A stretch of 42,836 bases of DNA from a virus. Positions 1 to 42,836 of this stretch are shown one piece after another. The notes under the pieces are model-generated. The model had not been told where the DNA came from, searched no databases, and saw only the letters and a list, made by a program, of their open reading frames with translations. Made by a program: the position numbers and the translations under genes. The stretch lies in the IMG/VR virus record IMGVR_UViG_3300032116_000436, positions 1 to 42,836 of that record. One strand, given 5' to 3'. Each line of letters opens with the position of its first letter. Position 1 is the first letter of the stretch.

Positions 1-615
1 ATCTGGCTAGGCGAGTATCAGAGGAACAGCGAGGCCCGCGTCTTTCGGAACTGGCGCATTGATCGCCTGGACGTTCCATCGGACGCAAGGCCCTACTTCG
101 GAGCGGATTGGGGCTTTGCCATTGATCCGACCGTCCTGGTTCGTGCCTACCTGTGGGATCGAACGCTCTACATTGATGCAGAGGCGCACAAGATCGGTTG
201 CGAGATCGACCGGACGCCGCAGCTATTCGACCAGATCAGCGGTTCAAGGGAGTGGCCGATCACCGCTGACAGTTCTCGACCTGAAACCATCTCATTCATG
301 CGGCGGGCTGGCTTCAACATCCATGGGGCTGAGAAAGGCCCGAACAGCGTCAAGGATGGCGTTGAGTTCCTGAAGAGCGTGGACATCGTGGTGCATCCCA
401 AGTGCACCCACCTGATCGATGAACTGACGCTCTACTCGTGGAAGACCGACAAGCTGACCAACGAGATACTTCCCGTTCTGGAAGACAAGAAGAACCACGT
501 CATCGACGCGCTGCGATACGCCCTTGAAGCGACACGCAAGGCCGTCCCCAAGCTCGATGAAGTCGAGTTCTACGCAGGCCCGCCCCAGCATTCGGGCGGA
601 TGGCTGGGAGTGTAA
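1..615 (+). CDS. terL: Terminase large subunit, C-terminal part (left copy, cut by window edge)
   Basis: The frame is open from base 1 and matches residues 203-406 of the complete terminase at 40928-42148, so the window cuts into the gene. This part is the RNase H-like nuclease domain that cuts concatemeric DNA during headful packaging. Its acidic residues lie in GADWG, TADSS and HVIDALRYAL, as in the PBSX/Terminase_3C type. It differs from the right-hand copy at about 39 bases but only two residues (F/H and G/V near the C-terminus), so both copies look functional. The next gene starts 3 bases after the stop. Confidence 0.93.
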   Translation: MWLGEYQRNSEARVFRNWRIDRLDVPSDARPYFGADWGFAIDPTVLVRAYLWDRTLYIDAEAHKIGCEIDRTPQLFDQISGSREWPITADSSRPETISFMRRAGFNIHGAEKGPNSVKDGVEFLKSVDIVVHPKCTHLIDELTLYSWKTDKLTNEILPVLEDKKNHVIDALRYALEATRKAVPKLDEVEFYAGPPQHSGGWLGV

Positions 616-618
616 GAT

Positions 619-993
619 ATGGCAAATGGATTTGAGATCATCCAGCACGGTGAATCGCTGGTCACAAGGGCGATCCGATCGGCTGCCAACACGACCGGCG
701 TTGTCGTGAAAGCGACGCCGGGGCGGCTTTACGGTGGGCTTATCACCAACTACGCCGCATCCGGGCGCTTCATTAAGATTTATGACAAGGCGACGGCCCC
801 GACATCATCTGACATTCCGCTTTTCACAATGTTTGCTGGCGCAACTGGCACCACCCCCATTGTTAGCACTCCTCTCGTTTACGGCATTCCGTTTTCCAAC
901 GGCATTTCCTACCGCATCACAACGGGGCAGGCTGAAAGCGACGACACCGCACCGGCTGCCGGTGATGTGAACGGATATTTGGTCTTCACATGA
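619..993 (+). CDS. Conserved small protein between terL and portal (left copy)
   Basis: 124 aa of unknown function. It is rich in Gly, Thr, Ala and Ile with no signal or membrane segment, and the pattern suggests a compact beta-rich protein. Its place between terL and the portal, and the strong protein conservation between the two copies in this window (only S13T, K57M, T79A and D108N despite many silent changes), argue for a virion or packaging role. The start has GGGAG upstream, and the gene overlaps the portal start by 4 bases (ATGA). P22 has no gene at this place. Confidence 0.85.
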   Translation: MANGFEIIQHGESLVTRAIRSAANTTGVVVKATPGRLYGGLITNYAASGRFIKIYDKATAPTSSDIPLFTMFAGATGTTPIVSTPLVYGIPFSNGISYRITTGQAESDDTAPAAGDVNGYLVFT

Positions 994-2978
994 TCGAACC
1001 TGACGGAATGGAGAAGGGCGGCAAGAAGCCCGAGCACCGTCAGGTCATGGAACGCTTCAACCTCGCGTGGGAAGCCGACCGCGACAACCGTGACGATGCG
1101 CTGTCCGATCTGAAGTTCGTCGCTGGCGATCAGTGGCCGCCGGACGTTCGCAGGCAGCGTGAAGCGCAGGGCCGTCCGTGCATCACGGTCAACCGGATGC
1201 CGCAGTTCATCCGTCAGGTGACGGGCGACATGCGGCAGTCTCGTCCTGCGATCAAGGTGTCTCCCGTCGATGATCAGGGCGACCCCGAGATTGCGCGGAT
1301 GTATAATGGCATCGTTCGCCAGATCGAACGCATTTCAAAGGCCGATATGGTCTATACGATGGCGTTCCAGGCTGCGGTGGCCTGTGGCGTTGGTCACTTC
1401 CGCGTCGGGACCGAGTATTGCAAGGACAGCGTAACCGAGCAGGACATCATCATCCGGGCCATTCAGAACCCGCTTGGTGTGTTCTGGGATCCGAATGCAA
1501 AGGAGATCGACCGCTCGGACGCTGATTATTGCTTCGTGGTCGATGGCATCACGGAAGAGGCGTTCAAGAAGAAGTATCCCAAGGCCATTCTGTCTCCTGT
1601 CGATCCGGTTGACGCCAGTCAGGACACGTTCCTGTTCTGGCGCGATGATTCCATGATGCGGATCGCGGAGTACTGGTACAAGAAGCCGAAGAAATACACG
1701 CTCGCTCTCATGGAAGACGGCAAGACCGTCAACCTGTCGGACTTCAAGCCTGAGCTTCAGCCGTTCCTTCCCGTTGCAAGGGATCAGAATGGCGAGCCGA
1801 TCCAGCGTGAGGTGGACGGGTTTGAGGTCGAGATGGTCATCGTCTCGGGTTCGGAGGTCCTTGAAGGCCCTTACAAGTTCCCGGTCGCTCATATCCCGAT
1901 CATTCCGGTGATTGGCGAGGAAACCGTCATCGGGACGCAGGCTGTCCGCTCTGGCCTCATTCGTCATGCGAAGGACCCGCAGAGGCTCTACAACTACTGG
2001 CGCTCCTCGGCTGCCGAGTTGATTGCCCTCGCTCCCAAAGCGCCGTTCATGCTCACGCCCGAGCAGATCAAGAACCACCGTGCGATGTGGGATCGTGCGA
2101 ACGTCTCGCCGCTTCCGTACCTGCTCTACAGCCCCGACCCGCAAGCTCCTGGCGCTCCGCAGCGCATCGCCGCGCCGCAGCCTCCGAATGCTCTCTGGCA
2201 GGAAGCCCAGATCGCAGCCGATGACATGAAGGGCACGACAGGCATTTACGATGCTGGCTTGGGTGCGAAGTCGAATGAAACCTCTGGCAAGGCCATCCTC
2301 GCCCGTCAGCGGGAAGGGGACACGTCCACCTACCACTTCTTCGACAACCTCGCCTACGCCATCCGCAGGGCCGGCGAGATCGTCTGTGCGCTGATCCCGA
2401 AGATCTATGACACCGAGCGCGTTGTTCGTCTTCTGAATGAGGATGGCTCCGAAGCCTGGGTGAAGGTCAACCAGACAACGATTGCCGAGAATGGCGAGCC
2501 GATGACGATCAACGATCTGTCGGTCGGCAAGTACGATGTCACGGTCTCGACCGGACCGAGCTACAACACGCAGCGCATCGAAGCCGCCAACGCCATGGTT
2601 GAGTTCGCTCGTGCCTATCCGAACGCTGCCCCGGCGATGCTCGACAAGATCGCGAAGATGATGGACTGGCCGGAACACGAGGTCATCGCGGCCCGCCTGA
2701 AGGCCATGCTGCCGCCACCGCTTCAGCAGTTGTTCGACATGATCGATGAGACCGGCGGCGACACCGAGAAGATGGCGCAGGCACAACAGGCCATGCAGCA
2801 ACAGCAGCAGCCTAACCCGATGGCCGAGCTTGAGGCCCGCGAGAAGGCGGCAAAGATCGAAAACACCATGGCGAAGACGGAAGGCGAGAAGGCCAAGACC
2901 GCACAGGCCATGCAGAACCTCATGGCCCCTCCGGTCATCATGGACCCTGAGATCGCGATTCAGCCCGCGCAAGGCTGA
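990..2978 (+). CDS. Portal protein, P22 gp1-like
   Basis: 662 aa, close to the length of P22 gp1 (725 aa). Portals form the dodecameric ring at the head vertex through which DNA is packed and ejected. The N-terminal stretch (DLKFVAGDQWPPDVRRQR, then RPCITVNRMPQFIRQVTGD) is typical of the P22-type family. The C-terminal 100 residues are Gln- and Lys/Glu-rich (KMAQAQQAMQQQQQ) and predicted helical, fitting the barrel or tail end. The start overlaps the preceding stop; an internal Met at residue 7 is possible. A strong terminator follows. Confidence 0.95.
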   Translation: MIEPDGMEKGGKKPEHRQVMERFNLAWEADRDNRDDALSDLKFVAGDQWPPDVRRQREAQGRPCITVNRMPQFIRQVTGDMRQSRPAIKVSPVDDQGDPEIARMYNGIVRQIERISKADMVYTMAFQAAVACGVGHFRVGTEYCKDSVTEQDIIIRAIQNPLGVFWDPNAKEIDRSDADYCFVVDGITEEAFKKKYPKAILSPVDPVDASQDTFLFWRDDSMMRIAEYWYKKPKKYTLALMEDGKTVNLSDFKPELQPFLPVARDQNGEPIQREVDGFEVEMVIVSGSEVLEGPYKFPVAHIPIIPVIGEETVIGTQAVRSGLIRHAKDPQRLYNYWRSSAAELIALAPKAPFMLTPEQIKNHRAMWDRANVSPLPYLLYSPDPQAPGAPQRIAAPQPPNALWQEAQIAADDMKGTTGIYDAGLGAKSNETSGKAILARQREGDTSTYHFFDNLAYAIRRAGEIVCALIPKIYDTERVVRLLNEDGSEAWVKVNQTTIAENGEPMTINDLSVGKYDVTVSTGPSYNTQRIEAANAMVEFARAYPNAAPAMLDKIAKMMDWPEHEVIAARLKAMLPPPLQQLFDMIDETGGDTEKMAQAQQAMQQQQQPNPMAELEAREKAAKIENTMAKTEGEKAKTAQAMQNLMAPPVIMDPEIAIQPAQG

Positions 2979-3003
2979 CAGTCCCGGCTGAACCGGGTCA
3001 GAG

Positions 3004-3027
3004 GCCGTCCTTCGGGGCGGCTTTTTT
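3004..3027 (+). terminator. Rho-independent terminator after portal
   Basis: A 7-bp G/C-rich stem (3004-3010 with 3015-3021) closed by a TTCG tetraloop and followed by six T residues. It lies between portal and scaffold inside what must be one late operon, so it should be read through or attenuate, which fits a late antitermination system. Confidence 0.85.
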
Positions 3028-3039
3028 CATGTGAGAACC

Positions 3040-3822
3040 ATGGAAGAGCAGACCACGCAGCCGGTTGACGTTGAGCCGGTAGCCGTCCCTCAGGCTGAAA
3101 CTGAGGCCCCGGTCGAGACCACCGAAAAGGTCGAAGCTCCTGAAACAGAAGCCACTACGGAAACCCCGGAACCGGCAGAAGAGAAGCAGGAGAAGCCGAA
3201 ATCCCGCGCTCAACAGCGTGTGGAAGAGGCCCTTGCCGCGAAGAAGGAAGCCGAACGCCGCGCCGCAGCACTAGAGGCGCGTCTGAAGGTCCTTGAGGCG
3301 CAGCAAGCCCCGAACCCCGATTCCTACGACGATCCCACGAAGTTCCAGGCCGACCTGACCAGCCACGCAGTCAAGCAGGCGCGGGCCGATGAACTGAAGG
3401 AAGAGGCGCAGGAAGCCCGCAAGAGCGCCGAAGAGGCGCGTCATTCCGCATGGCGTGAGAAGGTCGAGACCGTCAAGGATCGGTTCCCCGACTTCGACAT
3501 CATCGCGCACAACCCGCAACTGCCCGTCTCGGAGACGATGGCGGACGTTATCTCAGAGCACGATAACGGCCCGGCCATCCTCTACTACCTCGGCAAGAAT
3601 CCCGAGGAAGCACGGCGCATCGCGTCACTCCCGCCAGCCCGTCAGGGTCTGGAACTCGGCCGCATCGAAGCGAAGGTTTCGATCCCGCCGCCCAAGCGAA
3701 CATCAACGGCACCGCCGCCCGCGCCGAAACTGGCCGGGGGTGGGTCGCCTTCCACGACACCAGCACCCGACAACATGAGCATGGACGCCTTTGCAGCATG
3801 GCTGCTGAAGGACGCCAGCTAA
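3040..3822 (+). CDS. Scaffolding protein
   Basis: 260 aa, acidic, Pro/Glu/Thr-rich in the first 55 residues, then a long charged coiled-coil region (EALAAKKEAERRAAALEARL), then a conserved block (PQLPVSETMADVISEHDNG, ILYYLGKNPEEARRIASLPP) found in scaffolds of P22-like phages. It directs coat assembly and leaves the prohead. Position between portal and coat is the P22 order. The ATG at 3040 is chosen; an in-frame GTG at 3031 would add three residues. Confidence 0.85.
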   Translation: MEEQTTQPVDVEPVAVPQAETEAPVETTEKVEAPETEATTETPEPAEEKQEKPKSRAQQRVEEALAAKKEAERRAAALEARLKVLEAQQAPNPDSYDDPTKFQADLTSHAVKQARADELKEEAQEARKSAEEARHSAWREKVETVKDRFPDFDIIAHNPQLPVSETMADVISEHDNGPAILYYLGKNPEEARRIASLPPARQGLELGRIEAKVSIPPPKRTSTAPPPAPKLAGGGSPSTTPAPDNMSMDAFAAWLLKDAS

Positions 3823-3851
3823 TGCGGGTGCCTGCCTAAGGGCTCCCCGAA

Positions 3852-5099
3852 ATGTCCAATTCCCAGCTTACGGCTGACATCATCGCGAAAGCGGCGGTGG
3901 CAGTTCTCGACAACAACCTCATTTTTGCGGACAAGGTGTTCCGTGGCTATGAGGAAGACTTCAACATGTCTCCGAACGGCTACACCGTTGGCGACACCAT
4001 CTCGATTCGCAAGCCGGCTGACTACACCGTTCGTGACGGTGCCGTTGCCTCGGCTCAGGACGTGGTGGAAGGCAAGACGACCATCCAGGTCAACAAGCGC
4101 AAGGGCGTGGACTTCAAGTTCACCTCGCAGGAACTGTCCCTGAACATCAAGGACCTGACCGAGCGCGCCATCAAGCCGGCTATGGTCCAGCTTGCCAACC
4201 AGATCGACAGCGATGTTGCGGCTCTCGCAAAGGACATCCCGTCGTGGGTTGGCACTGCCGGCCAGACCATCAATTCCTACGCTGACTTCGCTCTTGGCCC
4301 CCAGCGCCTTGACGAATATGCGGTGGGTTCTGAGGGTCGCATGGCTGCCCTTGCTCCCTCCGATCATTGGGGCCTGCTTGGCTCCCAGACCGCCCTGTAC
4401 ATGCAGGACGTTGCCAAGGGTGCCTATCGCAAGGGCTCGCTCGGCATGATCGGTGGCGTTGACACCCACATGAGCCAGAACGTGCAGTCCCTGACCATGG
4501 GCTCGCGCACCGGCTCCCCGCTGATCGACCTGTCCATCACCGCCTCGACCGTTTCGTATGCGTCGGTCAAGGACACCATGGTGCAGACGATCCACATCGA
4601 CACCCTCGGCGGCGCGACCGACACGATCAAGGCTGGTGAGGTCTTCACCATCGATGGCGTGTGGGCCGTCAACCCGGTCACGAAGGCTCGCCTTCCGTTC
4701 CTGAAGCAGTTCGTCGTTGTTTCCGACGCGACTGCGGTGGGTTCGGAGACGGATCTTGAGATCTATCCGGCCATGATCTGGACGGGTGCCTTCAAGAACG
4801 TCGACATCACGGCTGTTACGGACCTGAACAACCAGGCCGTGACGTTCTTCGGTACGGCTTCGACCCCGTATCGCCAGAACCTTGTGTTCCAGAAGAACGC
4901 CTTCGCTCTGGTCACGGTCCCGCTTGTCTCGCCTCCGGGCGCAACCCAGGTGGGTCGCCAGACCTACAAGGGCACGTCGGTTCGTGTGATCCCCGTCTAT
5001 GACGGCATCAACGACCATTCGATGTGGCGTCTCGACATCCTTTATGGCGTCAAGACCATCGACCCGCGCCTCGCGACCCGCATCAGCGGTTCGACCTGA
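3852..5099 (+). CDS. Major capsid (coat) protein, P22 gp5-like
   Basis: 415 aa, near the 430 aa of P22 coat. The N-terminal pattern (VLDNNLIFADKVFRGYEEDF, GDTISIRKP, then VNKRKGVDFKFTSQELSL) is typical of the P22 coat family, an HK97-fold shell protein. It is preceded by scaffold and followed by a hairpin and a small head protein. Confidence 0.95.
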   Translation: MSNSQLTADIIAKAAVAVLDNNLIFADKVFRGYEEDFNMSPNGYTVGDTISIRKPADYTVRDGAVASAQDVVEGKTTIQVNKRKGVDFKFTSQELSLNIKDLTERAIKPAMVQLANQIDSDVAALAKDIPSWVGTAGQTINSYADFALGPQRLDEYAVGSEGRMAALAPSDHWGLLGSQTALYMQDVAKGAYRKGSLGMIGGVDTHMSQNVQSLTMGSRTGSPLIDLSITASTVSYASVKDTMVQTIHIDTLGGATDTIKAGEVFTIDGVWAVNPVTKARLPFLKQFVVVSDATAVGSETDLEIYPAMIWTGAFKNVDITAVTDLNNQAVTFFGTASTPYRQNLVFQKNAFALVTVPLVSPPGATQVGRQTYKGTSVRVIPVYDGINDHSMWRLDILYGVKTIDPRLATRISGST

Positions 5100-5105
5100 T
5101 CCCAT

Positions 5106-5138
5106 GGGGGCGGCTAACCACCGCCCCCTTCCTCTTTT
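5106..5138 (+). terminator. Terminator-like hairpin after coat gene
   Basis: A perfect 8-bp stem (5106-5113 with 5121-5128, GGGGGCGG/CCGCCCCC) with a 7-base loop and a pyrimidine-rich tail ending in four T. The interrupted T tract suggests partial termination or 3'-end protection rather than a full stop, as expected between an abundant coat gene and the next head gene. Confidence 0.65.
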
Positions 5139-5154
5139 CTGAAAGGACAGTCCA

Positions 5155-5412
5155 ATGGCTGTGAAGGAACTCTCGGACGGCGGTGGAGACGGCGCGCGTC
5201 TTGGTCAGTCGGCCACCGACAAGATTGGTTTCTATGGTGCGACCCCGATCGTGCAGCGCTCCGGTGCTGCTCAGGCTGCGGTTGCTGCCACGGCTGCCAC
5301 TGCATCGACCCCCTACGGCTACTCTGAGGCTCAGGCCAACGCCATCGTGACGCTGGTGAACGAGCTTCGCGCCGCCATGGTCGCTGCCGGCCTCATCAAG
5401 GGTTCGGCGTAA
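5155..5412 (+). CDS. Small head protein, decoration/head-fibre-like
   Basis: 85 aa. It contains a segment of the form ATDKIGFYGATPIVQRSG followed by an Ala-rich linker and a C-terminal helix (ANAIVTLVNELRAAMVAAGLIKG). Small proteins with this build often sit directly after coat genes and are annotated as head fibre or decoration proteins. A good AAAGGA site precedes the ATG. The virion role is inferred from position and family pattern. Confidence 0.85.
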   Translation: MAVKELSDGGGDGARLGQSATDKIGFYGATPIVQRSGAAQAAVAATAATASTPYGYSEAQANAIVTLVNELRAAMVAAGLIKGSA

Positions 5413-5419
5413 CAAGACC

Positions 5420-5443
5420 GGGGGAGGGGTTCGCCTCTCCCCC
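5420..5443 (+). terminator. UUCG-capped hairpin between head genes
   Basis: A 10-bp stem with one G-T pair (5420-5429 with 5434-5443) closed by TTCG. No T tract follows, so it may be a processing or stability hairpin rather than an intrinsic terminator. It resembles the hairpin after the portal gene in loop and strength. Confidence 0.55.
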
Positions 5444-5460
5444 ATTCATTTGAGGTTCCC

Positions 5461-5877
5461 ATGGCGACAGCACACGACATCATCGTTGACGCCCGCGCCA
5501 TGCTCGGGATCGACGAGGCCGAAGAGCCGCTTCAGGACTACGAAGCGCAGCGCGGCCTGACAGCACTGAACAACATGCTTCAGCAGTGGGTGCTGGAAAA
5601 GACCATCATGGCCGCCCCCACGCTCGATAGCCTCACCGAGACGGTATCGGTGGACACCTACGGGCTTTCGTCCATTGCGGATGAGGGGAACGAGGCGTTC
5701 ACGGCCTGTCTCGCTGTCCGCCTTGCCCCCCGCTATGGCAAGCAGCCGGACGCGGTGACGGTGAACCTCTGCAACAACGGGAAAGAGGCAATCCAGAACG
5801 CCTCCTTTGATCCCGACAGCGTGAACGCGGACAATGACATTCCGGTCATGCCGTCGCAGCGGCTGGTGGACTACTAG
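5461..5877 (+). CDS. Head-completion (tail accessory) protein, P22 gp4-like
   Basis: 138 aa. The opening (TAHDIIVDARAMLGI, then QRGLTALNNMLQQW) is the mark of the P22 gp4 family, which binds the portal ring after packaging and forms the adaptor for gp10. In P22, gp4 also has muramidase activity; no catalytic residue can be confirmed here. The stop codon is directly followed by the ATG of the gp10-like gene. Confidence 0.88.
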   Translation: MATAHDIIVDARAMLGIDEAEEPLQDYEAQRGLTALNNMLQQWVLEKTIMAAPTLDSLTETVSVDTYGLSSIADEGNEAFTACLAVRLAPRYGKQPDAVTVNLCNNGKEAIQNASFDPDSVNADNDIPVMPSQRLVDY

Positions 5878-7230
5878 ATGCTTGAAGCGCCGTTTGCCAT
5901 CAAGGCGGGCAAGAGTGCGACAGAGCAGAACACCCGCGAAAACCTGATCAATATGTACGTTGAGAAGGTCCCGCAGGGGCGTGGCGGGCTGGTCCGCATC
6001 GGTCGCCCTGGTGTGCAGAAAAACCATTCGGTGAGTGGAGAAGCGCGCGGCGTCGCCTATCTGAAGGGCGGTGACTATGCTGTCATTGGTGACGGGTTCT
6101 ACCGCCTGACCACGACGGAAAGCATTCGTCTCGGGACGCTTCAGACCGCTAACGGCAAGTGTTCCTTCGGTGAGAACGCCACGCAGATCGGGATTTGCGA
6201 CGGCTTCGGCCTTTATTCATGGGATGGAACGACGTTCTCGCAGACATCGTTGCCGATCACTGCCGCAGGCTCCTTTGCTGCCCTTGACGGCTACGGCGTG
6301 TTCAACGACCGCAATTCGGGACGGTTCTACAGGACCGACCTCAACGACTTCACGACGGTTGGCGTGCTGAATTTCGCCACCGCCGAAAGCCAGCCGGACA
6401 GGCTTGTTCGCGTGTTCACCGATCATCGTCAGATTTGGCTGTTCGGTGAGACCTCCATTGAGGTGTGGGAGAACGTCGGCACGTCCGGGTTTTCGTTTCA
6501 GCGGGTTGGCGGCGTTGCCCTTGAGAGGGGCTGCGGCGGTGCCTACACGGTTGCAGCCGAAGACAACACGGTTTTCTGGCTTGGAAACGATGGAATGGTC
6601 TACCGGGCGGATGGATACCGGCCCGCGCGCATCTCGGATGAGGGTGTTGAGCGCCTGATTGGCGAAGCAAGGCCCTATTCGGACGCTTATGCGTGGGTTT
6701 ACGCCATTCCGGGGCACAAGTTCTATGTTCTGACGTTTCCGGGGCGTCTGACGGTCGCCTATGACATCGCAACGGGTGCGTGGCATCAGGCGAAGACGTG
6801 GGAGTCCGCATCCTGGGACATCGTGGGGCCTCATCGGCTCGGTGCGACTGTGGTTTTGGGCCATGGTGGCGTCTGCCAGCTTGTCCCGACAGCCTATCAG
6901 GACAACGGCGACATTCTCGAGCGTGTGGCAATCGCCCCGCCGATCTATAACAACGGCAAGCGCATTCAGATTGACGCCTACTGGCTCGATTGCGAGACGG
7001 GGATTGTTGATCCGGGTGTTTCGCCCTCTGTCATGCTGTCTCTTGCAAAGGACGGGATGACTTTCGGCAACGTCAGGACGCGGGCCTTGGGTGCTGTGGG
7101 TGATTACAAGCGCCGCGCCGTGTGGCGTAACCTCGGGATTGCCCGTGACTGGACGTTCCGGTTGAGCTTCACCGACAACGCCCCGTTTACAGTCGTTTCA
7201 GGGCGCATGGAAGCGCAGGTGCTGGGGTGA
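5878..7230 (+). CDS. Packaged-DNA stabilization protein, P22 gp10-like
   Basis: 450 aa, near the 472 aa of P22 gp10, the tail-hub protein between gp4 and the tail needle. The N-terminus (NTRENLINMYVEKVPQGRGG, then RIGRPGVQKN) and repeated beta-propeller-like segments (YAVIGDGFYRL, VFTDHRQIWLFGETSIEVWE) fit the family. It directly follows the gp4-like gene. No recognisable gp26 tail needle follows. Confidence 0.88.
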   Translation: MLEAPFAIKAGKSATEQNTRENLINMYVEKVPQGRGGLVRIGRPGVQKNHSVSGEARGVAYLKGGDYAVIGDGFYRLTTTESIRLGTLQTANGKCSFGENATQIGICDGFGLYSWDGTTFSQTSLPITAAGSFAALDGYGVFNDRNSGRFYRTDLNDFTTVGVLNFATAESQPDRLVRVFTDHRQIWLFGETSIEVWENVGTSGFSFQRVGGVALERGCGGAYTVAAEDNTVFWLGNDGMVYRADGYRPARISDEGVERLIGEARPYSDAYAWVYAIPGHKFYVLTFPGRLTVAYDIATGAWHQAKTWESASWDIVGPHRLGATVVLGHGGVCQLVPTAYQDNGDILERVAIAPPIYNNGKRIQIDAYWLDCETGIVDPGVSPSVMLSLAKDGMTFGNVRTRALGAVGDYKRRAVWRNLGIARDWTFRLSFTDNAPFTVVSGRMEAQVLG

Positions 7231-7652
7231 GCGCCGCCCCGCAGAACATTCAGTTTGTGGATGACAGGCGGTTCCTGACGAGAGAGGCAAGGGCATACCT
7301 CGCAAGGATCACGGAACGGAGCGTTGAGCAGCTTATAGCTGGTCAAATCCTGACCTTGAGCGCGGTTGCCTACGCATCGTTCTCGTTCAATCAGGCGGGT
7401 GAGGTGACGGCGGCGACAGCAGCCAATCCGACCGGAACTGATGCCCAGGTTGTTGTCTATGTGGTGCCGAACGGCGAAAGCCCTGCGGCTCAATACATCG
7501 TGGTTTCGTTTCAGGACGTGCCGGCGCTGTCGAGTGTTTCACTCACGGGATTGGTCAATCAGGCCATCCCTCCGGGGGCGTCGATCTACGCATATGCCAG
7601 CGTTGCCGATACGGTGACGCTCACGGTTTCGGGTGTTCGCAGGGCTCAATGA
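7227..7652 (+). CDS. Hypothetical tail/connector protein
   Basis: 141 aa, GTG start overlapping the gp10-like stop by 4 bases. The sequence is rich in Val, Ala, Thr and Ser with alternating hydrophobic residues (AQVVVYVVPNGESPAAQYIVVSFQ is one such region), suggesting a beta-sandwich. No known motif. Its place after gp10 and coupling to the next gene suggest a connector or tail role. Confidence 0.8.
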   Translation: MSAAPQNIQFVDDRRFLTREARAYLARITERSVEQLIAGQILTLSAVAYASFSFNQAGEVTAATAANPTGTDAQVVVYVVPNGESPAAQYIVVSFQDVPALSSVSLTGLVNQAIPPGASIYAYASVADTVTLTVSGVRRAQ

Positions 7653-32618: not shown

Positions 32619-32624
32619 TGGCGC

Positions 32625-32825: not shown

Positions 32826-32826
32826 C

Positions 32827-33962: not shown

Positions 33963-34057
33963 GTGGCCTCCGTCGCCTCCTGTTCGGTGAGCAAACCTCA
34001 CCACAGGAGTAGTCGGAGATGTCCGCCAAGAAGTCGTCATTCCAAGGAGTGCGTATC

Positions 34058-34432: not shown

Positions 34433-34447
34433 GATCGGAGACGAGAC

Positions 34448-34849: not shown

Positions 34850-35483
34850 CCGTGTGGTGATGGGTATTGATCCAGGCGCTTCCGGTGCTTTGGGGGTGAA
34901 TGGGAGAAAGCGTGTCTTCGCATTGAAGCAAGGCCAGTCTCCGTCAATTGAGTGGCCTGGCTTTGTCGAAATCGACGGCGGCAAGCTCCGCAAGGAGGTC
35001 GAATATCGCGGGCGTCCAGTTTCTCGCTACTTCCTGCCAAAGAACTGCTCGTGCTGTGGAATGCGTATGCTTCAGGAGGCGGGGAACGCCAGCAGGGGTC
35101 ATAGGCCGTTTTGCTCTATGGTGTGCAGAACCAAGCAAAAGCGCCTTGACGTTGTTGGGAACAAAATAAAGAAACACAGAGACAGCGGTGGCCATCACGT
35201 CCTTGTAAAGGTTTTAAAGCACCCTCGCATGGACCGCCACGGCAACGTCTATGAGCATGTTCTTGTGGCAGAGCAGGTAGTTGGGCGTTTCTTGGATAAG
35301 AACGAGCGCGTCCATCACATCAATTGCGTCAAGGATGACAATCGCCCTGAGAATCTCCACGTGTGCGCATCAGACAGCGCGCACTTCAAGATTCACGGCT
35401 CGCTTAACCGTTGCGTTGCGGCGTTGCTCGCCAATGGGGCTCTGCGCTTCAACCCAGCGACAGAAGAATACGAGGTCGCCTGA
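34842..35483 (+). CDS. RuvC-like resolvase N-terminus fused to an HNH homing endonuclease
   Basis: 213 aa. Residues 1-19 (MRDRVVMGIDPGASGALGV) are the first strand of a phage RuvC-like Holliday-junction resolvase with its first catalytic Asp. From residue 20 the sequence changes to a homing endonuclease: zinc-binding pairs (CSCCGM, FCSMVC), EHVLVAEQVVGRF, and HNH_3 core VHHINCVKDDNRPENLHVCA. The rest of RuvC is absent downstream. Codon use and A/T content of the HNH part differ from the neighbours. The resolvase is therefore dead; the HNH enzyme may be expressed from the resolvase start. Confidence 0.82.
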   Translation: MRDRVVMGIDPGASGALGVNGRKRVFALKQGQSPSIEWPGFVEIDGGKLRKEVEYRGRPVSRYFLPKNCSCCGMRMLQEAGNASRGHRPFCSMVCRTKQKRLDVVGNKIKKHRDSGGHHVLVKVLKHPRMDRHGNVYEHVLVAEQVVGRFLDKNERVHHINCVKDDNRPENLHVCASDSAHFKIHGSLNRCVAALLANGALRFNPATEEYEVA

Positions 35484-35833
35484 TGGATGGCACGGCCTTC
35501 TCAGTTCCCGTCCCGCCATCGCTGAACATGTGCTTCAGCAACGTTCCCGGTCGCGGGCGCGTAAAGACGGCGCTTTATAAGGCGTGGATTGAGGAGGCCG
35601 GATGGGCGATAGCGTCACAGCGGCCCAGCAAGATCCAGGGTCCCTATCAGGCCATCATTCGTCTTCCTGAGAAGACGCCAGGCGACATCGACAACCGCGC
35701 CAAGGCCGTCCTCGACCTCATGGTCAAGCACAAGATCACGCCAGATGACAGGCTGCTGCACAAGTTGGTGGTGGAGCGCACCCCCGGCATCGCGAGCGCC
35801 TGCGTTTCGATCCTTCCGTGGGAGGCAGCATGA
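35483..35833 (+). CDS. rusA: RusA-family Holliday-junction resolvase
   Basis: 116 aa, sharing one base with the preceding stop. It begins with a PVPPSLN strand and has the family signature PGDIDNRAKAVLDLMVKHKI followed by TPDDRLLHKLVVER, with conserved acidic residues in GDIDN and PDD. It resolves recombination branches. It probably replaces the interrupted RuvC-like resolvase directly upstream. Confidence 0.87.
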   Translation: MDGTAFSVPVPPSLNMCFSNVPGRGRVKTALYKAWIEEAGWAIASQRPSKIQGPYQAIIRLPEKTPGDIDNRAKAVLDLMVKHKITPDDRLLHKLVVERTPGIASACVSILPWEAA

Positions 35834-36549
35834 GCCGCTGGTATCGCGCCTACTCCGGAACGGTGAAGGACGACAAGCTGGCCGAGGTGGCCGTCATTGT
35901 CGGGTGTTCTCGTTCTGTTGCCATCGCCACATGGCACGCCATTCTTGAGAGCGCCGCTGAGTGCAATGACGGTGGCCGCTTCGATACGACTTCACGCCGC
36001 GTTGCCGCTGTCCTTGGAGAGCCGGCGACGGTCATCGATCAGGTTTTCCAGGCAATGCAAGAGCTTGGAATGATCGAGGGGCAGGAGGTTGGGGCTTGGA
36101 AGAAGCGCCAATTTGAGAGCGACAGCAGCACGGAACGTTCCCGCAAGCACCGAGAGACCAAGCGCAACGGTGATGCAACGTTGCAGGAACGTTCTGCAAC
36201 GCCCCCATATACAGAGACAGATACAGAACATTCTCAGGTTATCTCTCTCCCTACGGTCGAGAGAAAACCTTCGACTGCGCCGCAAGCGGCCCCGACAGAT
36301 TTTCGAGGCGATCTTTTCGAGCGTGGCAGAACTTCCGTCGAGGCAATGACTGGGATGCCGGCCCCCAAGGCGCGAACCCTCATCGGCTCCTGGCTGAAGC
36401 TGGCGAACGACGAAGCCGTGATCGTGCTTGAGGCAATCGACGCTGCCAGCGAGGCGCGTCCAGCCGATCCGGTGCCGTGGATCAGACGAACAATCGAAAG
36501 CCGGATGCGAACTCGCGATCCGCCGAAACGGGTGTGGGGGTCGGTATGA
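35830..36549 (+). CDS. Replication protein with N-terminal winged helix
   Basis: 239 aa. The N-terminus (SRWYRAYSGTVKDDKLAEVA, then FDTTSRRVAAVLGEPATVID, QVFQAMQELGMIEGQ) resembles phage replication organiser proteins with a winged-helix DNA-binding domain. A polar linker and a C-terminal domain (MPAPKARTLIGSWLKLANDE, DPVPWIRRTIESRM) follow, as in helicase-loading partners. It overlaps rusA by ATGA. Confidence 0.8.
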   Translation: MSRWYRAYSGTVKDDKLAEVAVIVGCSRSVAIATWHAILESAAECNDGGRFDTTSRRVAAVLGEPATVIDQVFQAMQELGMIEGQEVGAWKKRQFESDSSTERSRKHRETKRNGDATLQERSATPPYTETDTEHSQVISLPTVERKPSTAPQAAPTDFRGDLFERGRTSVEAMTGMPAPKARTLIGSWLKLANDEAVIVLEAIDAASEARPADPVPWIRRTIESRMRTRDPPKRVWGSV

Positions 36550-36851
36550 GCGCGGCGGACATCTTCGCGAAATACCAAATCCGGGCAAATCCACACCGGA
36601 TGGGCAACCAGAAGACCAAATGCCCCAAGTGCTCACACCTCAGGCGCAACAAATCCGAGCCGTGCCTGTCGGTCCAAGTCACTGCCGAAGGATGCCGGTG
36701 GAACTGCCACCACTGCGGATGGAAGGGCGCTGAAAATGCTGGGAACGACGCATCTGGCATGGCTCGACAAGCGGGGGATCGATCCCGAACTCGCGACCCG
36801 CTTGGGGATTTACACCGCGCGGCGCGGCGAGAGTGGTTCCGTCACGCCTGA
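36546..36851 (+). CDS. Zinc-ribbon primase domain in its own frame
   Basis: 101 aa. The first 65 residues are a T7 gp4-like primase zinc-binding domain (KCPKCSHLRRNKSEPC, then CRWNCHHCGWKGA). After KGAEN the frame overlaps the helicase gene for 116 bases and the sequence loses any natural pattern (RSRTRDPLGDLHRAARREWF). In most phages this domain is fused to the Toprim-helicase. Here it is either a split partner or joined by a +1 shift near GCTGAAAATG (36729-36738). Confidence 0.75.
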   Translation: MSAADIFAKYQIRANPHRMGNQKTKCPKCSHLRRNKSEPCLSVQVTAEGCRWNCHHCGWKGAENAGNDASGMARQAGDRSRTRDPLGDLHRAARREWFRHA

Positions 36852-38211
36852 CGATGCCGGCGACATCCTCGTCTTCCCGTTCATCGAAGGCGAGAAGGAA
36901 ATCGGGGCCAAGTATCGCGGGCCTCAGAAGCGGTTCTGGCAGAAGCCGAACGCCCGGAAGACGTTCTGGAATGCCGACGTTTTGGACGATCCCGCGCTGA
37001 AGGCGGGGACACATGCGCTGGTCATCACCGAAGGCGAGATGGACGCTCTTGCGGTAATCCAGGCAGGCTATCCCTTCGCCGTCTCCGTCCCTGATGGTGC
37101 GCCTCCCGAGGGGCCTGTGTCGGAAGTCACGGACCTCGACCACGACACCAAATACAGCTTCATCCACAACAACTGGGATCGGCTGAAGGGCATCAAGCGG
37201 ATCATCATCGCCACGGACAACGACGGGCCAGGCAAGCGGCTTGCCGAGGAACTGGTGCGGCGTCTGGACCGGCTGCGCTGTTCGTGGGTGGCATATCCAG
37301 AAGGATGCAAGGACTTCAACGACGTTCTGGTGAGCCATGGCGGGCCTGAGGTCATCCGCATCATTAATCAGGCTAAGGAATACCCGGTTTCGGGGCTCTA
37401 CCGTCTGGCTGACATTCCGATCCCGCCGCCGCTTCAGGGCCTGTCCAGCGGATGGAAGAGCCTCGACAAGCACGTGAAGCTTTACAGCCCGGCGCTCATG
37501 GTCGTTACGGGATTTGCAGGGCAGGGCAAGTCCACATGGACGCAGCAACTCGTTGCCAATCTGGCGAGGCAATACGGCTGGGTCACGGCCATCGCCTCAT
37601 TCGAGATGATGATCCGGCCCTATGTGGTGGACGCGCTAGGGGCTGCCTTTCTCGACAAGCCCAAGTGGGTTGACCGGAAGATCAACTGGACGAAGGCGGA
37701 AGAGGACCGGGCCGAACGGTGGGTGGCGGATCACTTTGTCTTCATCGGCCCTGATGCCGAGTGTGACGATGACGCGGACATTTCCTGGCTTATCGAACGG
37801 GCTGAGGCTGCGGTCATCCGGCACGGTGCCAAGTGCATCGTCATCGATCCGTGGAACGAAGTCGATCATCTAAGGCGACGGGACGAGAGCCAGACAGAAT
37901 ATGTCGGGCGAGCCATCCGTCAGTTGAAGCGGTTCGCCAGCAGCTATAATGTTCTTGTGGTAATCGTGGCGCATCCGACAAAATCTGCTAAGGAAAAAGG
38001 CCCGGATCAGCTATCGTTGTACGACATTTCTGACAGCGCGCACTTTGCAAACAAGGCAGACATCGGCGTCATTATTGCCCGAAAGGGGAATCTGGAAATG
38101 GACACTCTGACGGCAGTGCTTGTGAAGAAGATCAGGCATCAGCCGGACATGGGCTTGCCGGGCGAAGTGGATTTGGACTTCGACCCAGTGAAGCGCCTGT
38201 TCATCGAGTGA
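36736..38211 (+). CDS. Toprim primase-helicase, T7 gp4-like, lacking the zinc domain in frame
   Basis: 491 aa. A Toprim domain lies at about 95-205 (VITEGEMDALA, IIATDNDGPG, CKDFNDVL) and a RecA-like helicase at about 230-490 with Walker A GFAGQGKST, Walker B KCIVIDPWNE and a VAHPTK motif. It unwinds the fork and makes primers. The ATG at 36736 has GGAAGG upstream. There is no upstream start in this frame because of a stop at 36547, so the zinc ribbon is only reachable by frameshift. Confidence 0.9.
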   Translation: MLGTTHLAWLDKRGIDPELATRLGIYTARRGESGSVTPDDAGDILVFPFIEGEKEIGAKYRGPQKRFWQKPNARKTFWNADVLDDPALKAGTHALVITEGEMDALAVIQAGYPFAVSVPDGAPPEGPVSEVTDLDHDTKYSFIHNNWDRLKGIKRIIIATDNDGPGKRLAEELVRRLDRLRCSWVAYPEGCKDFNDVLVSHGGPEVIRIINQAKEYPVSGLYRLADIPIPPPLQGLSSGWKSLDKHVKLYSPALMVVTGFAGQGKSTWTQQLVANLARQYGWVTAIASFEMMIRPYVVDALGAAFLDKPKWVDRKINWTKAEEDRAERWVADHFVFIGPDAECDDDADISWLIERAEAAVIRHGAKCIVIDPWNEVDHLRRRDESQTEYVGRAIRQLKRFASSYNVLVVIVAHPTKSAKEKGPDQLSLYDISDSAHFANKADIGVIIARKGNLEMDTLTAVLVKKIRHQPDMGLPGEVDLDFDPVKRLFIE

Positions 38212-38229
38212 GGCACAGAGGAGCGCAGC

Positions 38230-38451
38230 ATGAGCGAGAAGCTGGACGTGGAGATGCACATCAGGGTCTTCGATCAGCGCGGAAACTTTGTTGCCGTTCG
38301 CCCGGATTCTGACGGCCTCGGTCTTTTAGAGGTGGATGGCAAGGACGATTTCGGCCGCATCATCATGACAGTCGAGATGGCGCTAGAGGTAGCCGCCGCG
38401 ATCCATCGCGTTGCCGCCGACATGCGACCCGCCAAGCCCACAGGAGAGTGA
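38230..38451 (+). CDS. Hypothetical 73-aa protein
   Basis: Acidic, soluble (KLDVEMHIRVFDQRGNFVAV, DGLGLLEVDGKDDFGRIIMT). GAGG-like site before the ATG. It follows the helicase gene; function unknown. Confidence 0.7.
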   Translation: MSEKLDVEMHIRVFDQRGNFVAVRPDSDGLGLLEVDGKDDFGRIIMTVEMALEVAAAIHRVAADMRPAKPTGE

Positions 38452-38454
38452 AGG

Positions 38455-38640
38455 ATGGCCTACCGCGCAATCATGGCTCTCCTGCTCATCGCGTCATCAG
38501 TGGCTGCCGGCGTCATGCTTGGGGCGACCATGCCCGGATTGATCTTCGTATGGGCTCACTACCCGACGACGATCGGTATCGTGGCGGCTGTTGTCGGTCT
38601 CACGATCACCCGAACCGCAATCGGAATTGTGAGAGGCTGA
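38455..38640 (+). CDS. Membrane protein, two spans
   Basis: 61 aa with two hydrophobic helices (AIMALLLIASSVAAGVMLGA and YPTTIGIVAAVVGLTI), GGAG upstream of the ATG. The stop is directly followed by the ATG of the 14-aa basic peptide. Confidence 0.66.
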   Translation: MAYRAIMALLLIASSVAAGVMLGATMPGLIFVWAHYPTTIGIVAAVVGLTITRTAIGIVRG

Positions 38641-38685
38641 ATGGCACGTCGAGGCCGCAAGAGGAAACTCGGTAACCGCGTCTAA
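38641..38685 (+). CDS. 14-aa basic peptide MARRGRKRKLGNRV
   Basis: Seven of 14 residues are Arg or Lys. The ATG follows the previous stop without a gap. I recall similar MxRRGRKRK peptides opening small phage ORFs, so it may be a real micro-protein, a remnant, or a leader peptide controlling the NusG-like gene 61 bases downstream. Confidence 0.45.
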   Translation: MARRGRKRKLGNRV

Positions 38686-38727
38686 ATTTGCGTTTTTGCA
38701 ATGAGTGTGGTGTAATCATCCAACTGA

Positions 38728-38743
38728 TTTGCGGAGGCGCAAA
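38728..38743 (+). promoter_or_regulatory. Hairpin holding the ribosome site of the NusG-like gene
   Basis: TTTGCG (38728-38733), loop GAGG, CGCAAA (38738-38743) place the GGAGG of the next gene in the loop of a perfect 6-bp hairpin. A second TTTGCG at 38687-38692 could pair with the same CGCAAA and free the upstream arm, giving two alternative folds. Confidence 0.5.
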
Positions 38744-38746
38744 CGA

Positions 38747-39355
38747 ATGAGTTACCGCATCGCCCGCCTCATGACCAGAGCCGCAAAGGCCAGATCAATC
38801 AGGCCGCAGCTTTGGAAGAAGAAGCAGCAATGGCGGTTCATTGATGAGACATCGCCGCTTCAGCCGGCCCCACAGGCGGGCACTTGGCACGTCCTGCTAG
38901 TCGAGCCCAGGATGGAGAAGAAAGCCGCTGAGGCGCTTCGGGAGGCCGGCTATACGGCATGGTATCCGCAGACGGTGGAGATGCGGACCAATCAACAGCG
39001 AATGCTCCGGCGCAAGTTCAACGAGCCGCTATTCCAGCGATACGTGTTCGTGACAGGGCAGGGCTACCGGCTGGGGATGGTGGACTGCAAGCACGTCTCA
39101 ATGGTGGTCGGCAAGATTTCGCAGAAGGACATCAACGATCTTTCAAGCCGTCAGGCTGGCGGCGAGTTCGTTGCCAAGGTGGCCGGGCATGGTTTCGCCA
39201 AGGGTGAGCATGTCAAGGTCAAGGAAGGTCCGTTCGGTGGACTTGATGGCATCGTGGAAAAGACGACGCGGGATCGTGTGTCGATCCTCATGAACATTTT
39301 GGGCCGCTCAACTGAGATCAGTGTTGACGCATCTGTGATCGAGATGGCTGCTTGA
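38747..39355 (+). CDS. NusG-like transcription elongation/antitermination factor
   Basis: 202 aa from ATG at 38747 (GGAGG upstream). A basic N-terminal extension (SYRIARLMTRAAKARSIRPQ) precedes an NGN domain (GTWHVLLVEPRMEKKAAEAL, WYPQTVEMRT, LFQRYVFVTG) and a C-terminal KOW domain (FAKGEHVKVKEGPFGGLDGI, VSILMNILGRSTEISVD). NusG paralogues such as RfaH bind RNA polymerase and suppress termination. Being the last early gene, just before a promoter and the late operon, it probably plays the role of lambda Q. Confidence 0.86.
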   Translation: MSYRIARLMTRAAKARSIRPQLWKKKQQWRFIDETSPLQPAPQAGTWHVLLVEPRMEKKAAEALREAGYTAWYPQTVEMRTNQQRMLRRKFNEPLFQRYVFVTGQGYRLGMVDCKHVSMVVGKISQKDINDLSSRQAGGEFVAKVAGHGFAKGEHVKVKEGPFGGLDGIVEKTTRDRVSILMNILGRSTEISVDASVIEMAA

Positions 39356-39379
39356 CATCCAATGCGGCGTCGGTATTGT
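39352..39379 (+). promoter_or_regulatory. Predicted late promoter
   Basis: TTGACA (39352-39357), 16-base spacer, TATTGT (39374-39379), starting inside the stop region of the NusG-like gene. It would feed the structured stretch and then terS, terL and the head genes. Confidence 0.55.
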
Positions 39380-39384
39380 GATTG

Positions 39385-39720
39385 ACAACGCAGCCGCTAT
39401 GCGGCTGAATTGGCCCCTGTAGTGGCCGGACGGCATAGGCAATAGCCATGTGCCACCGCTGCATTTCTCGCGGCGGGCGTAGCTATATTCAGGCTCGGAC
39501 TTGCGTCCGGGCAGAGATCAGTCGGCGGCGTGGATGGACACGCTGAGAGTCGTCACTAACCCATCCAGACGCCCGGCGAACTGGGACGCCTCGAAAGAGG
39601 GCAATGGAGACCAGCGGAGATGGGGAGCCGGTATCAAGCCCGGCCCGACTGACAGCATACACAGCGACGGGTTCCGACCGGGCATCGAACACCGGTCCTA
39701 AGCACACCACGGGAACCGGT
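39385..39720 (+). ncRNA. Candidate structured RNA or leader between nusG-like gene and late genes
   Basis: About 340 bases without a convincing ORF but with many local hairpins: CAGCCGC/GCGGCTG (39391-39407, loop TAT), an 8-bp stem at 39493-39512 (loop TTGC), a GAAA-capped CCTC/GAGG stem (39589-39600), GCCGG/CCGGC (39627-39644) and GACCGG/CCGGTC (39676-39697). I cannot match it to a named family. It may be the site where the NusG-like factor loads, or a separate RNA. Confidence 0.45.
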
Positions 39721-39764
39721 CAGCGACCCGACGATGCGGGGCTGTGTTGAGAGAAGGTGCGCAA

Positions 39765-39920
39765 ATGTCGATCAAGATGCAGTGCGGGCTTGCCTTCGTT
39801 GAGATCCCCGTTGAGGCGCTTGATGGGATGAGCAGGGGCGATGTTGACGCTCTGGTTCGCAACCTTATCGAGTGTGGGGCTCGCCTTGATGCCGCCTCGC
39901 ACGAAATCAAGATCGACTAG
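39765..39920 (+). CDS. Hypothetical 51-aa protein
   Basis: Soluble (MSIKMQCGLAFVEIPVEALD, GDVDALVRNLIECGARLDAA), GAGAAGG upstream of the ATG. First ORF after the structured stretch. A terminator-like hairpin follows. Function unknown. Confidence 0.65.
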   Translation: MSIKMQCGLAFVEIPVEALDGMSRGDVDALVRNLIECGARLDAASHEIKID

Positions 39921-39942
39921 TCCTTTCGCGCGCTTGGCAGCG

Positions 39943-39968
39943 GGGCTCTCGGGGAAACTCGGGAGCCC
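39943..39968 (+). terminator. Terminator-like hairpin
   Basis: A 9-bp stem with one T-G pair (39943-39951 with 39960-39968), 8-base loop, followed by TTCTTCATT. It lies upstream of the terminase genes, so the late transcript must pass it, consistent with antitermination. Confidence 0.6.
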
Positions 39969-39989
39969 TTCTTCATTCGGAGGCTGGCG

Positions 39990-40088
39990 ATGTTGACCTT
40001 TGCCGCTGGCTTCTTCGCCTGCCTCGCACTGGTGGCGGTGATCATCGGGCGCATTGGCTACCGCTTCGCCGTGGAACTGTTCGAGTGA
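39990..40088 (+). CDS. 32-aa membrane peptide
   Basis: One hydrophobic helix (TFAAGFFACLALVAVIIGRI) and an amphipathic tail. CGGAGG site before the ATG and GTGA overlap with the next ORF. Confidence 0.55.
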   Translation: MLTFAAGFFACLALVAVIIGRIGYRFAVELFE

Positions 40089-40156
40089 TCCTCTATTCCC
40101 TCATCGTCCCCATCGGCACAGCCCTTACGCTGGCAATCATGGATTGGCTGTCATGA
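40085..40156 (+). CDS. 23-aa membrane peptide
   Basis: GTG start in a 4-base overlap, almost wholly hydrophobic (ILYSLIVPIGTALTLAIMDW). Its stop overlaps the next ATG (ATGA). Only the coupling supports it. Confidence 0.42.
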   Translation: MILYSLIVPIGTALTLAIMDWLS

Positions 40157-40494
40157 CGATCTCGGAATTTCAGGCGTGGCTTGAAGGCTACTCGGCATCG
40201 TTCGGTGAAGCGCCGTCCGCCGACCAGTGGGCAGAGATCAAGGGGCGCATTGCTCGGCTTCAGGTTGTGTCGTTTCCGCCTACCCGCGAATGGACCGGCG
40301 CGCCTATCGGTGGCTGTGCTTGCCCGCCCGGCACCATATGCAACAGCATCGTTTGCCCGCGTGGGTATCGGGTGACCAGCCCCTCAATGGGGGCTTCTGG
40401 CAGCGCCACGGTTGGCGGCGGGCCGACCCATACGGTTCTCCGCCCAGATCAACTGCCTAGCCAAACCCACGGTCGCAACGGAGGCTGGTCATGA
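40153..40494 (+). CDS. Hypothetical Cys-containing protein
   Basis: 113 aa. N-terminal helix (TISEFQAWLEGYSASFGEAP, SADQWAEIKGRIARLQVV), then a Gly/Pro/Cys-rich tail (GGCACPPGTICNSIVCPRGY). The helical start resembles small proteins near terminase genes of other alphaproteobacterial phages. Function unknown. Confidence 0.66.
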   Translation: MTISEFQAWLEGYSASFGEAPSADQWAEIKGRIARLQVVSFPPTREWTGAPIGGCACPPGTICNSIVCPRGYRVTSPSMGASGSATVGGGPTHTVLRPDQLPSQTHGRNGGWS

Positions 40495-40652
40495 CGATTG
40501 AATACCGCCCGGCAAGCGACTTCCCGTTCTGGGTCGTGAGGGAAGACGGCGCTATCGTGTGCGCGTGTCCGACTGAGGACGCAGCAAAGCGGGTTGTCCT
40601 GGGCAAGAAGTTTGAGCCCTATCCGAACGATCCGGGTTTCATGGTTGTGTAA
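40491..40652 (+). CDS. Hypothetical 53-aa protein
   Basis: MTIEYRPASDFPFWVVREDG, then CACPTEDAAKRVVLGKKFEP. Coupled to the preceding gene by ATGA. Function unknown. Confidence 0.66.
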   Translation: MTIEYRPASDFPFWVVREDGAIVCACPTEDAAKRVVLGKKFEPYPNDPGFMVV

Positions 40653-40692
40653 ATGCTTATCACATTGATTAACAAGGCGCGGAGCAGCAATC

Positions 40693-40950
40693 GTGTCGCG
40701 ATCCGACATTAAGCGCCAAGCGCAGAAGAACCTTGCCGGCCTAGCTCGCTCTCATACTGAAAAGGCACTGCTAACGCTTGTGTCTGCCATGGACAGCGAC
40801 GACGAGCGAGTGAGGGTCGATGCGGCGTCTCGCATCCTTGATCGTGGCTACGGCAAGCCGGCGCAGTCTGTCGAGGTGATGGGCGATGAAGACGGCGGGC
40901 CGATCCAAAACAACATCGTCGTGAGCTTTGTCCCAGGTTCAACTTCCTGA
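40693..40950 (+). CDS. terS: Probable terminase small subunit
   Basis: 85 aa from GTG (GGAG upstream). SRSDIKRQAQKNLAGLARSH and RVRVDAASRILDRGYGKPAQ follow a pattern common in small proteins directly before terL, where the AA..ILDRGYGKP motif is typical. It overlaps terL by 23 bases. It is shorter than most TerS proteins, so a TerS-like accessory role is possible. Confidence 0.65.
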   Translation: MSRSDIKRQAQKNLAGLARSHTEKALLTLVSAMDSDDERVRVDAASRILDRGYGKPAQSVEVMGDEDGGPIQNNIVVSFVPGSTS

Positions 40951-42148
40951 AGCGTTCGAGGGGCTATTCCAGCCTCACCGCTACAAAGCGTTTTATGGCG
41001 GTCGAGGGAGCGCCAAGTCACATTCGATAGCCACGGCTCTTGTGCTGATTGGAGCGCAGAAGCCGACACGCATTCTTTGCGCCCGTGAGATTCAGAAGAG
41101 CATCGCGGATTCGGTCAAGCGGCTCTTAGAAGACAAGATCAAGGCGTTAGGGCTTGACGGGTTCTATTCCTCGACCCTGACAGACATCAAGGGCAAGAAC
41201 GGGACTGAGTTTATATTCGCGGGTCTTCGGACGAACCCGGAAAGCATCAAGTCTCTAGAAGGCATCGACATCGCGTGGGTTGAAGAGGCGGCGACCGTCT
41301 CCCAGTCCTCGCTAGACATCCTCATCCCCACGATCCGCAAGGAAGGCTCGGAACTGTGGTTCTCATGGAACCCACGGTTCAAGAGCGATCCGATTGACGT
41401 GATGTTCAGGGAAAAGGAACCGCCCGGCGCTCTCGTCAAGCGGGTGCTGTGGTCGGACAATCGCTGGTTTCCTGCGGTCCTGAAACAGGAGCTTGAGTGG
41501 GATCGGGAACGAGACCCTGACAAATACGCTCACATCTGGCTAGGCGAGTATCAGAGGAACAGCGAGGCCCGCGTCTTTCGGAACTGGCGCATTGATCGCC
41601 TGGACGTTCCATCGGACGCGCGGCCATACTTCGGGGCGGATTGGGGCTTTGCCATCGATCCGACCGTTCTCGTTCGTGCCTATCTGTGGGATCGGACGCT
41701 CTACATCGATGCCGAGGCGCACAAGATCGGTTGTGAGATTGACCGGACGCCGCAGCTATTCGACCAGATCAGCGGGTCAAGGGAATGGCCGATCACTGCT
41801 GACAGTTCTCGTCCTGAAACGATCTCGTTTATGCGGCGGGCTGGCTTCAACATCCATGGGGCTGAGAAGGGCCCGAACAGCGTCAAGGATGGCGTTGAGT
41901 TCCTGAAAAGCGTGGACATCGTGGTGCATCCCAAGTGCACGCACCTCATTGATGAACTCACGCTCTATTCGTGGAAGACCGACAAGCTGACGAACGAAAT
42001 TCTACCCGTCCTTGAGGACAAGAAGAACCACGTCATCGACGCGCTGCGATACGCCCTTGAGGCGACACGCAAGGCCGTCCCCAAGCTCGATGAAGTCGAG
42101 CACTACGCAGTCCCGCCGCAGCATTCGGGCGGATGGCTAGGAGTTTAA
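40928..42148 (+). CDS. terL: Terminase large subunit (complete, right copy)
   Basis: 406 aa from TTG at 40928, inside the end of the small-subunit gene. The ATPase has Walker A GGRGSAKS (24-31) and Walker B IDIAWVEE (113-120). The nuclease has D238 (GADWG), D292 (TADSS) and D371 (HVIDALRYAL). It cuts and translocates DNA into proheads. Residues 203-406 are duplicated, with two changes, at the left end of the window. Confidence 0.94.
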   Translation: MSQVQLPEAFEGLFQPHRYKAFYGGRGSAKSHSIATALVLIGAQKPTRILCAREIQKSIADSVKRLLEDKIKALGLDGFYSSTLTDIKGKNGTEFIFAGLRTNPESIKSLEGIDIAWVEEAATVSQSSLDILIPTIRKEGSELWFSWNPRFKSDPIDVMFREKEPPGALVKRVLWSDNRWFPAVLKQELEWDRERDPDKYAHIWLGEYQRNSEARVFRNWRIDRLDVPSDARPYFGADWGFAIDPTVLVRAYLWDRTLYIDAEAHKIGCEIDRTPQLFDQISGSREWPITADSSRPETISFMRRAGFNIHGAEKGPNSVKDGVEFLKSVDIVVHPKCTHLIDELTLYSWKTDKLTNEILPVLEDKKNHVIDALRYALEATRKAVPKLDEVEHYAVPPQHSGGWLGV

Positions 42149-42151
42149 GAA

Positions 42152-42526
42152 ATGGCGAATGGGTTTGAAATCATTCAGCACGGTGAAACGCTGGTCACAA
42201 GGGCGATCCGTTCGGCTGCCAACACGACCGGCGTTGTCGTGAAAGCGACGCCGGGGCGGCTTTACGGTGGGCTTATAACTAACTACGCCGCATCCGGGCG
42301 TTTCATCAAGATTTATGACATGGCTACGGCCCCGACATCATCCGACATTCCTCTTTTCACAATGTTTGCCGGTGCCACTGGGACCGCTCCCATTGTTAGC
42401 ACTCCTCTCGTTTACGGCATTCCGTTTTCCAACGGCATTTCCTACCGCATCACAACGGGTCAGGCTGAAAGCGATAATACCGCGCCGGCTGCCGGTGATG
42501 TGAACGGATATTTGGTCTTCACATGA
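42152..42526 (+). CDS. Conserved small protein between terL and portal (right copy)
   Basis: 124 aa, differing from the left copy (619-993) at four residues. Same start context and the same ATGA overlap with the portal gene. Function unknown; probable virion or packaging role by position. Confidence 0.85.
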   Translation: MANGFEIIQHGETLVTRAIRSAANTTGVVVKATPGRLYGGLITNYAASGRFIKIYDMATAPTSSDIPLFTMFAGATGTAPIVSTPLVYGIPFSNGISYRITTGQAESDNTAPAAGDVNGYLVFT

Positions 42527-42836
42527 TCGAACCTGACGGAATGAAAAAGGGGGGCAAGAAGCCCGAGCATCGTCAGGTTATGGAGCGGTTTAATCTCGCA
42601 TGGGAAGCCGACCGCGATAACCGTGACGATGCTCTGTCTGATCTGAAGTTCGTCGCTGGGGATCAGTGGCCGCCTGATGTTCGCCGGCAGCGTGAAGCGC
42701 AGGGCCGCCCGTGCATCACGGTCAACCGGATGCCGCAGTTCATCCGTCAGGTCACTGGCGACATGCGGCAGTCTCGTCCTGCGATCAAGGTGTCGCCTGT
42801 TGACGATCAGGGCGACCCTGAGATTGCGCGGATGTA
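42523..42836 (+). CDS. Portal protein, N-terminal part (right copy, cut by window edge)
   Basis: 104 residues of a P22-like portal, differing from the left copy only at residue 8 (Glu to Lys) over the visible part. Open to the window edge. Confidence 0.93.
   Translation, partial: MIEPDGMKKGGKKPEHRQVMERFNLAWEADRDNRDDALSDLKFVAGDQWPPDVRRQREAQGRPCITVNRMPQFIRQVTGDMRQSRPAIKVSPVDDQGDPEIARM

Follow-up and report, generated by a model that had tools for sequence, protein, structure and literature searches.

Does the IMG/VR virus record IMGVR_UViG_3300032116_000436 hold one phage genome or two? This stretch of 42,836 nucleotides, analysed over its whole length and referred to here as the window, ends in a near-copy of its own beginning and carries a tRNA fragment among its phage genes. 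An initial annotation had read it as two related P22-like prophages placed head to tail, of which the first would occupy 1-26524 and the second 26575-42836, both inserted at the same tRNA-Val gene. The evidence assembled below points to a different reading, which we hold with considerable confidence, namely that the window represents a single P22-like temperate phage with a circular genome of 41.5 kb, assembled past its point of closure in a multi-strain, mosaic population.

Gene content and gene order

Family searches identified the packaging, head, ejection, spike, lysis, integrase and replication modules each only once per period of 41,533 bp. The plus strand encodes, in order, a P22-type portal protein (990-2978; family search), a scaffolding protein (3031-3822), the major head protein (3852-5099), head closure, acetyltransferase-like and DNA-ejection genes (5878-13075), tail fibre/collar-like and tail-spike genes (13140-18169), an endolysin (18474-19163) and a DNA repair exonuclease (20606-21832). 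An HNH gene and the tRNA fragment come next. A tyrosine integrase (26703-27725; PF00589, phrog_1) and a group of DNA repair/recombinase-like and Gam-like genes (29130-30555) follow on the minus strand, after which the plus strand carries a replication initiator and a primase/helicase (35818-38211) and a complete copy of the terminase large subunit, TerL (40928-42148; PF04466 and PF17288). The P22-type portal, scaffold, coat and head-closure proteins occurring in this order, and a tyrosine integrase with an adjacent attP, mark the window as that of a P22-like temperate phage.

Two other contigs bear this arrangement out. G004, a relative, has contig ends that share an exact overlap of 127 bp lying within a short tandem-repeat tract, and its circular gene order is that of the window (gam through terL, portal, scaffold, major head protein, closure, ejection, spike, lysis and exonuclease to the integrase). 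In the whole of the 19.9-kb contig L157, which is about 78-93% identical to the window where aligned, genes from the right part of the window run unbroken through terL into genes from its left part, with a single terL-portal copy. Modules that occur once each, the circular order of G004 and the unbroken terL region of L157 therefore indicate that the 41,533-bp period is one phage genome.

Other genes in the window include a NusG/KOW-domain protein at 38705-39355, which is a possible phage antiterminator, an HNH-AP2 homing-type endonuclease at 30552-31109, and an ORF with a HicB-like antitoxin domain on the minus strand (23155-23958) that lacks an obvious toxin.

Two alleles and the return to the left end

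Self-comparison confirms the repeat on which the initial annotation was based: 1-1303 aligns with 41534-42836 over 1303 bases without a gap and with 92 mismatches (92.94% identity), and at E<=1e-5 the window has no other match to itself. Both copies lie on the plus strand. The left copy (allele A) contains the 3' part of terL (1-615), a small ORF (619-993) and the start of the portal gene (from 990), while the right copy (allele B) contains the same genes and is 100% identical to parts of two independent contigs, L010 and L004. An exact end repeat is absent from the window, which IMG/VR classes as linear. Between A and B, the TerL C-terminus shows 41 substitutions (37 at the third codon position, two residue changes), the 124-residue ORF 25 (21 and four) and the portal N-terminus 25 (23 and one), so that third positions account for 81 of the 92 substitutions and the three ORFs together show seven residue changes, as had been reported. 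If substitutions were random, about 75% would be computed to be nonsynonymous. The two copies are therefore alleles that function and are subject to purifying selection; sequencing error does not account for them. It had also been argued that circular permutation of one phage would yield identical copies; this is true of a clone, but does not hold for a metagenomic population.

The sequence beyond the right end can be followed in the same two contigs. Contig L010 (3300031963) is identical to the window over 36735-42836, with zero differences, and past the right end it carries six B alleles up to position +30 and is then identical to allele A from +31 to +156, which corresponds to window 1335-1460. 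Contig L004 (3300031951) shows no difference from the window over 41493-42836, and its allele B extends from 41493 around to 3315, within the scaffolding gene, after which it equals A up to 6016 with one difference. This lies at base 4229, where a third contig, L003, too departs from the window. The change from B to A in L004 is abrupt, its divergence falling from about 9% to 0%. Both L010 and L004 may be chimeric assemblies themselves. Their extensions show that in two samples the sequence beyond the right end leads back to the left part of the window itself; in tandem prophages it would have continued in a second, different phage.

The position of the contig ends suggests how the overlap arose. 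L003 (3300008450) matches 1-5819 with the one difference and has 28 additional bases on its left, equal to 41506-41533. It thus starts at 41506, L004 starts at 41493, and base 1 of the window corresponds to 41534; the first A/B difference, at 41620, is 86 bases from the start of the window, 114 from that of L003 and exactly 127 from that of L004. A k-mer size of 127 is usual. Three contig starts within 41 bp, just before the alleles diverge, are as expected of a graph fork between coexisting strains, and the plus-strand stretch at 41506-41619, which is free of A/B differences over at least 114 bp directly upstream of 41620, is its likely site.

Strain variation is also seen at and shortly beyond the end of the head gene, where a second variable patch spans 5161-5889. 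Contig L236 (3300005525), which matches 5161-22775, has another allele at 5166-5709. It equals contig L011 up to 5753, and from 5754 onwards it has the allele of the window, while L011 differs up to 5889.

The tRNA-Val fragment and the sequence across it

The tRNA 3' fragment with phage genes on both sides is indeed present. Alignment with intact tRNA-Val genes places it on the minus strand at 26525-26577, as the 3'-terminal 53 nt of a tRNA-Val(CAC), extending from the anticodon loop TTCACAC to the terminal CCA and missing the first 22 nt. Neither ARAGORN nor Rfam finds a complete tRNA in the window, and Rfam finds no RNA of any kind there. The fragment lies 125 bp past the stop codon of the integrase, and integrases of relatives, in viral contigs as well as in alphaproteobacterial genomes, have the same tRNA-Val core downstream. 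About a dozen relatives have a similar integrase/fragment layout, as is known for integrases whose attachment site is the 3' end of a tRNA gene. Two controls show what surrounds such a core in a free phage: in G011, a 42.75-kb contig with an exact end overlap of 123 bp, the tRNA-Val core is found mid-contig, and in phage Sc-Yong805-1 (OP858991), deposited as complete and circular, a tRNA-type 3' fragment ending in CCA is located just past an integrase 43% identical to that of the window and has annotated genes on both sides. A further relative with the same core, G012, was left out as a circular control since it has no end repeat. Phage genes flanking a tRNA 3' fragment are thus the picture of a free phage. 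The central junction of a tandem dilysogen would not be distinguishable from such an attP, and the fragment alone is no argument for tandem prophages.

Searches for an integrated form gave the following results. No exact copy of the attB core occurs in the 385 genomes sampled from the class around Aureimonas frigidaquae. No attL contig was found in IMG/VR, where the exact 36-base pattern of the attP left arm matches only L011, and a scan of IMG/VR with the integrase retrieved only L011 above 57% identity.

L011 (3300008266, 31,126 bp) matches window 5452-36577 with 28 differences, all within 5517-5889. Over 5890-36577 it is 100% identical to the window and runs straight across the tRNA fragment, with 20.6 kb to its left and 10.0 kb to its right. 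L010, identical from 36735, shows 29 differences over 36293-36734 and has a different gene module before 36225. As L011 is identical up to 36577 and L010 from 36735, the haplotype of the window changes after 36577 and not at 26525, and a strain boundary at the tRNA, as proposed, is not supported. Allele A of 36735-41505 is present in none of the contigs compared.

The segment in which L010 departs from the window has features of its own. When window 34818-35833 is compared with L010:261-761, a 221-residue HNH endonuclease ORF of the window is seen to start with the first ~24 residues of a 166-residue L010 protein. That protein is intact in L010 and resembles RuvC-type resolvases (motif MGIDPGASGA; no Pfam match), and the window carries a RusA-type resolvase (PF05866) after the HNH ORF. 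Judging from these sequences, it looks as if one Holliday-junction resolvase has been exchanged for an HNH endonuclease and another resolvase. In the replication initiator (35818-36549 versus L010:761-1480), the N-terminal halves are unrelated and the C-terminal halves near-identical, with a breakpoint near 36225 that is common to contig L131.

Alternative readings and comparison with known phages

Tandem prophages at one tRNA-Val gene would account for a period equal to one phage length, for ends that differ by 7% and for phage genes on both sides of the tRNA fragment, the middle junction of a dilysogen having the same form as attP. The free-phage attP accounts fully for the fragment, though, as G011 and Sc-Yong805-1 illustrate, and the fragment sits at the attP place for this integrase family. 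The same 31-kb arrangement across the tRNA recurs in a second sample (L011), and the supposed second phage differs only in a patch where it can be traced, becoming A-identical again at about 1335 or 3316. Further, the samples together contain more than two alleles (A and B at terL-portal; in L236 and L011 also a further variant at 5161-5889), host DNA could not be recognised anywhere in the window, and no prophage end occurs among the IMG/VR contigs with this integrase or attP left arm. We therefore regard tandem prophages as very unlikely, and give equally little weight to the special case of a true dilysogen of two near-identical phages that differ in short allelic patches and recombine together at one tRNA-Val. 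What stands of the initial annotation is that the window joins two related strains and is not one clonal genome; the boundary at the tRNA and the tandem-prophage arrangement are not supported. A natural 1.3-kb diverged terL-portal duplication within a single real phage genome appears more improbable still. In its favour, the reading frames of both copies are open and show purifying selection, but the ends of the repeat coincide exactly with both contig ends, the contig end cuts the second portal copy, L010 and L004 lead from the right copy directly into the rest of the portal gene, present once, where this would be expected, and L157 has one terL-portal copy.

One variant of the single circular genome takes the join to be an artefact of assembly: sequence of L011 type, on the left and in the middle, and sequence of L010 type, on the right, would then never share a physical molecule. 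The probability of this variant overlaps with that of the circular genome itself. We consider this a real if lesser possibility, given that the window follows the L011 haplotype as far as 36577 and that of L010 from 36735, before which L010 differs. Homologous recombination occurring naturally in the conserved primase region would leave an identical picture, and the step in the divergence of L004 argues for real mosaics.

The circular reading may be put together as follows. The genome would be of headful type and circularly permuted. The assembler would have left the strain fork in terL along allele A, completed one turn of the circle, come back into the part of terL common to both alleles, and stopped after a further 1.2 kb in allele B. 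The tRNA-Val fragment would be the phage's own attP, which the integrase presumably joins to the tRNA-Val(CAC) gene of the host, restoring the 3' end of that gene upon integration. The closest genome relatives of the integrase are alphaproteobacterial, and the host is probably an alphaproteobacterium as well. The integrases of OP858991 and of PP438413 (L337 and L338), deposited with Synechococcus and Nostoc as hosts, are both 43% identical to that of the window, and the stated hosts deserve a check because the best genome relatives of the window integrase are alphaproteobacterial.

On this interpretation, ends that repeat each other closely but not exactly can, in phage contigs from metagenomes, be the sign of a complete circle closed over a strain-variable segment, and pipelines that require exact end repeats call such genomes linear. 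The window would also contribute a P22-like phage that is new and essentially complete, attP included, and whose host is probably an alphaproteobacterium. With P22-like (Lederbergvirus-type) temperate podoviruses it shares the portal, scaffold, head, head-closure and ejection genes in P22 order, a 41-kb genome and a terminase of the PF04466/PF17288 type. Its portal protein matches 96 Salmonella phage records but is less than 60% (at best about 41%) identical to that of any deposited phage, and megablast finds no DNA match between the window and deposited phages. The circular IMG/VR phage contigs G004, G008 and G011 close with exact, k-mer-type end repeats of 127, 94 and 123 bp, whereas the overlap of the window is 1303 bp long and, owing to the different strain alleles at its two ends, only 93% identical.
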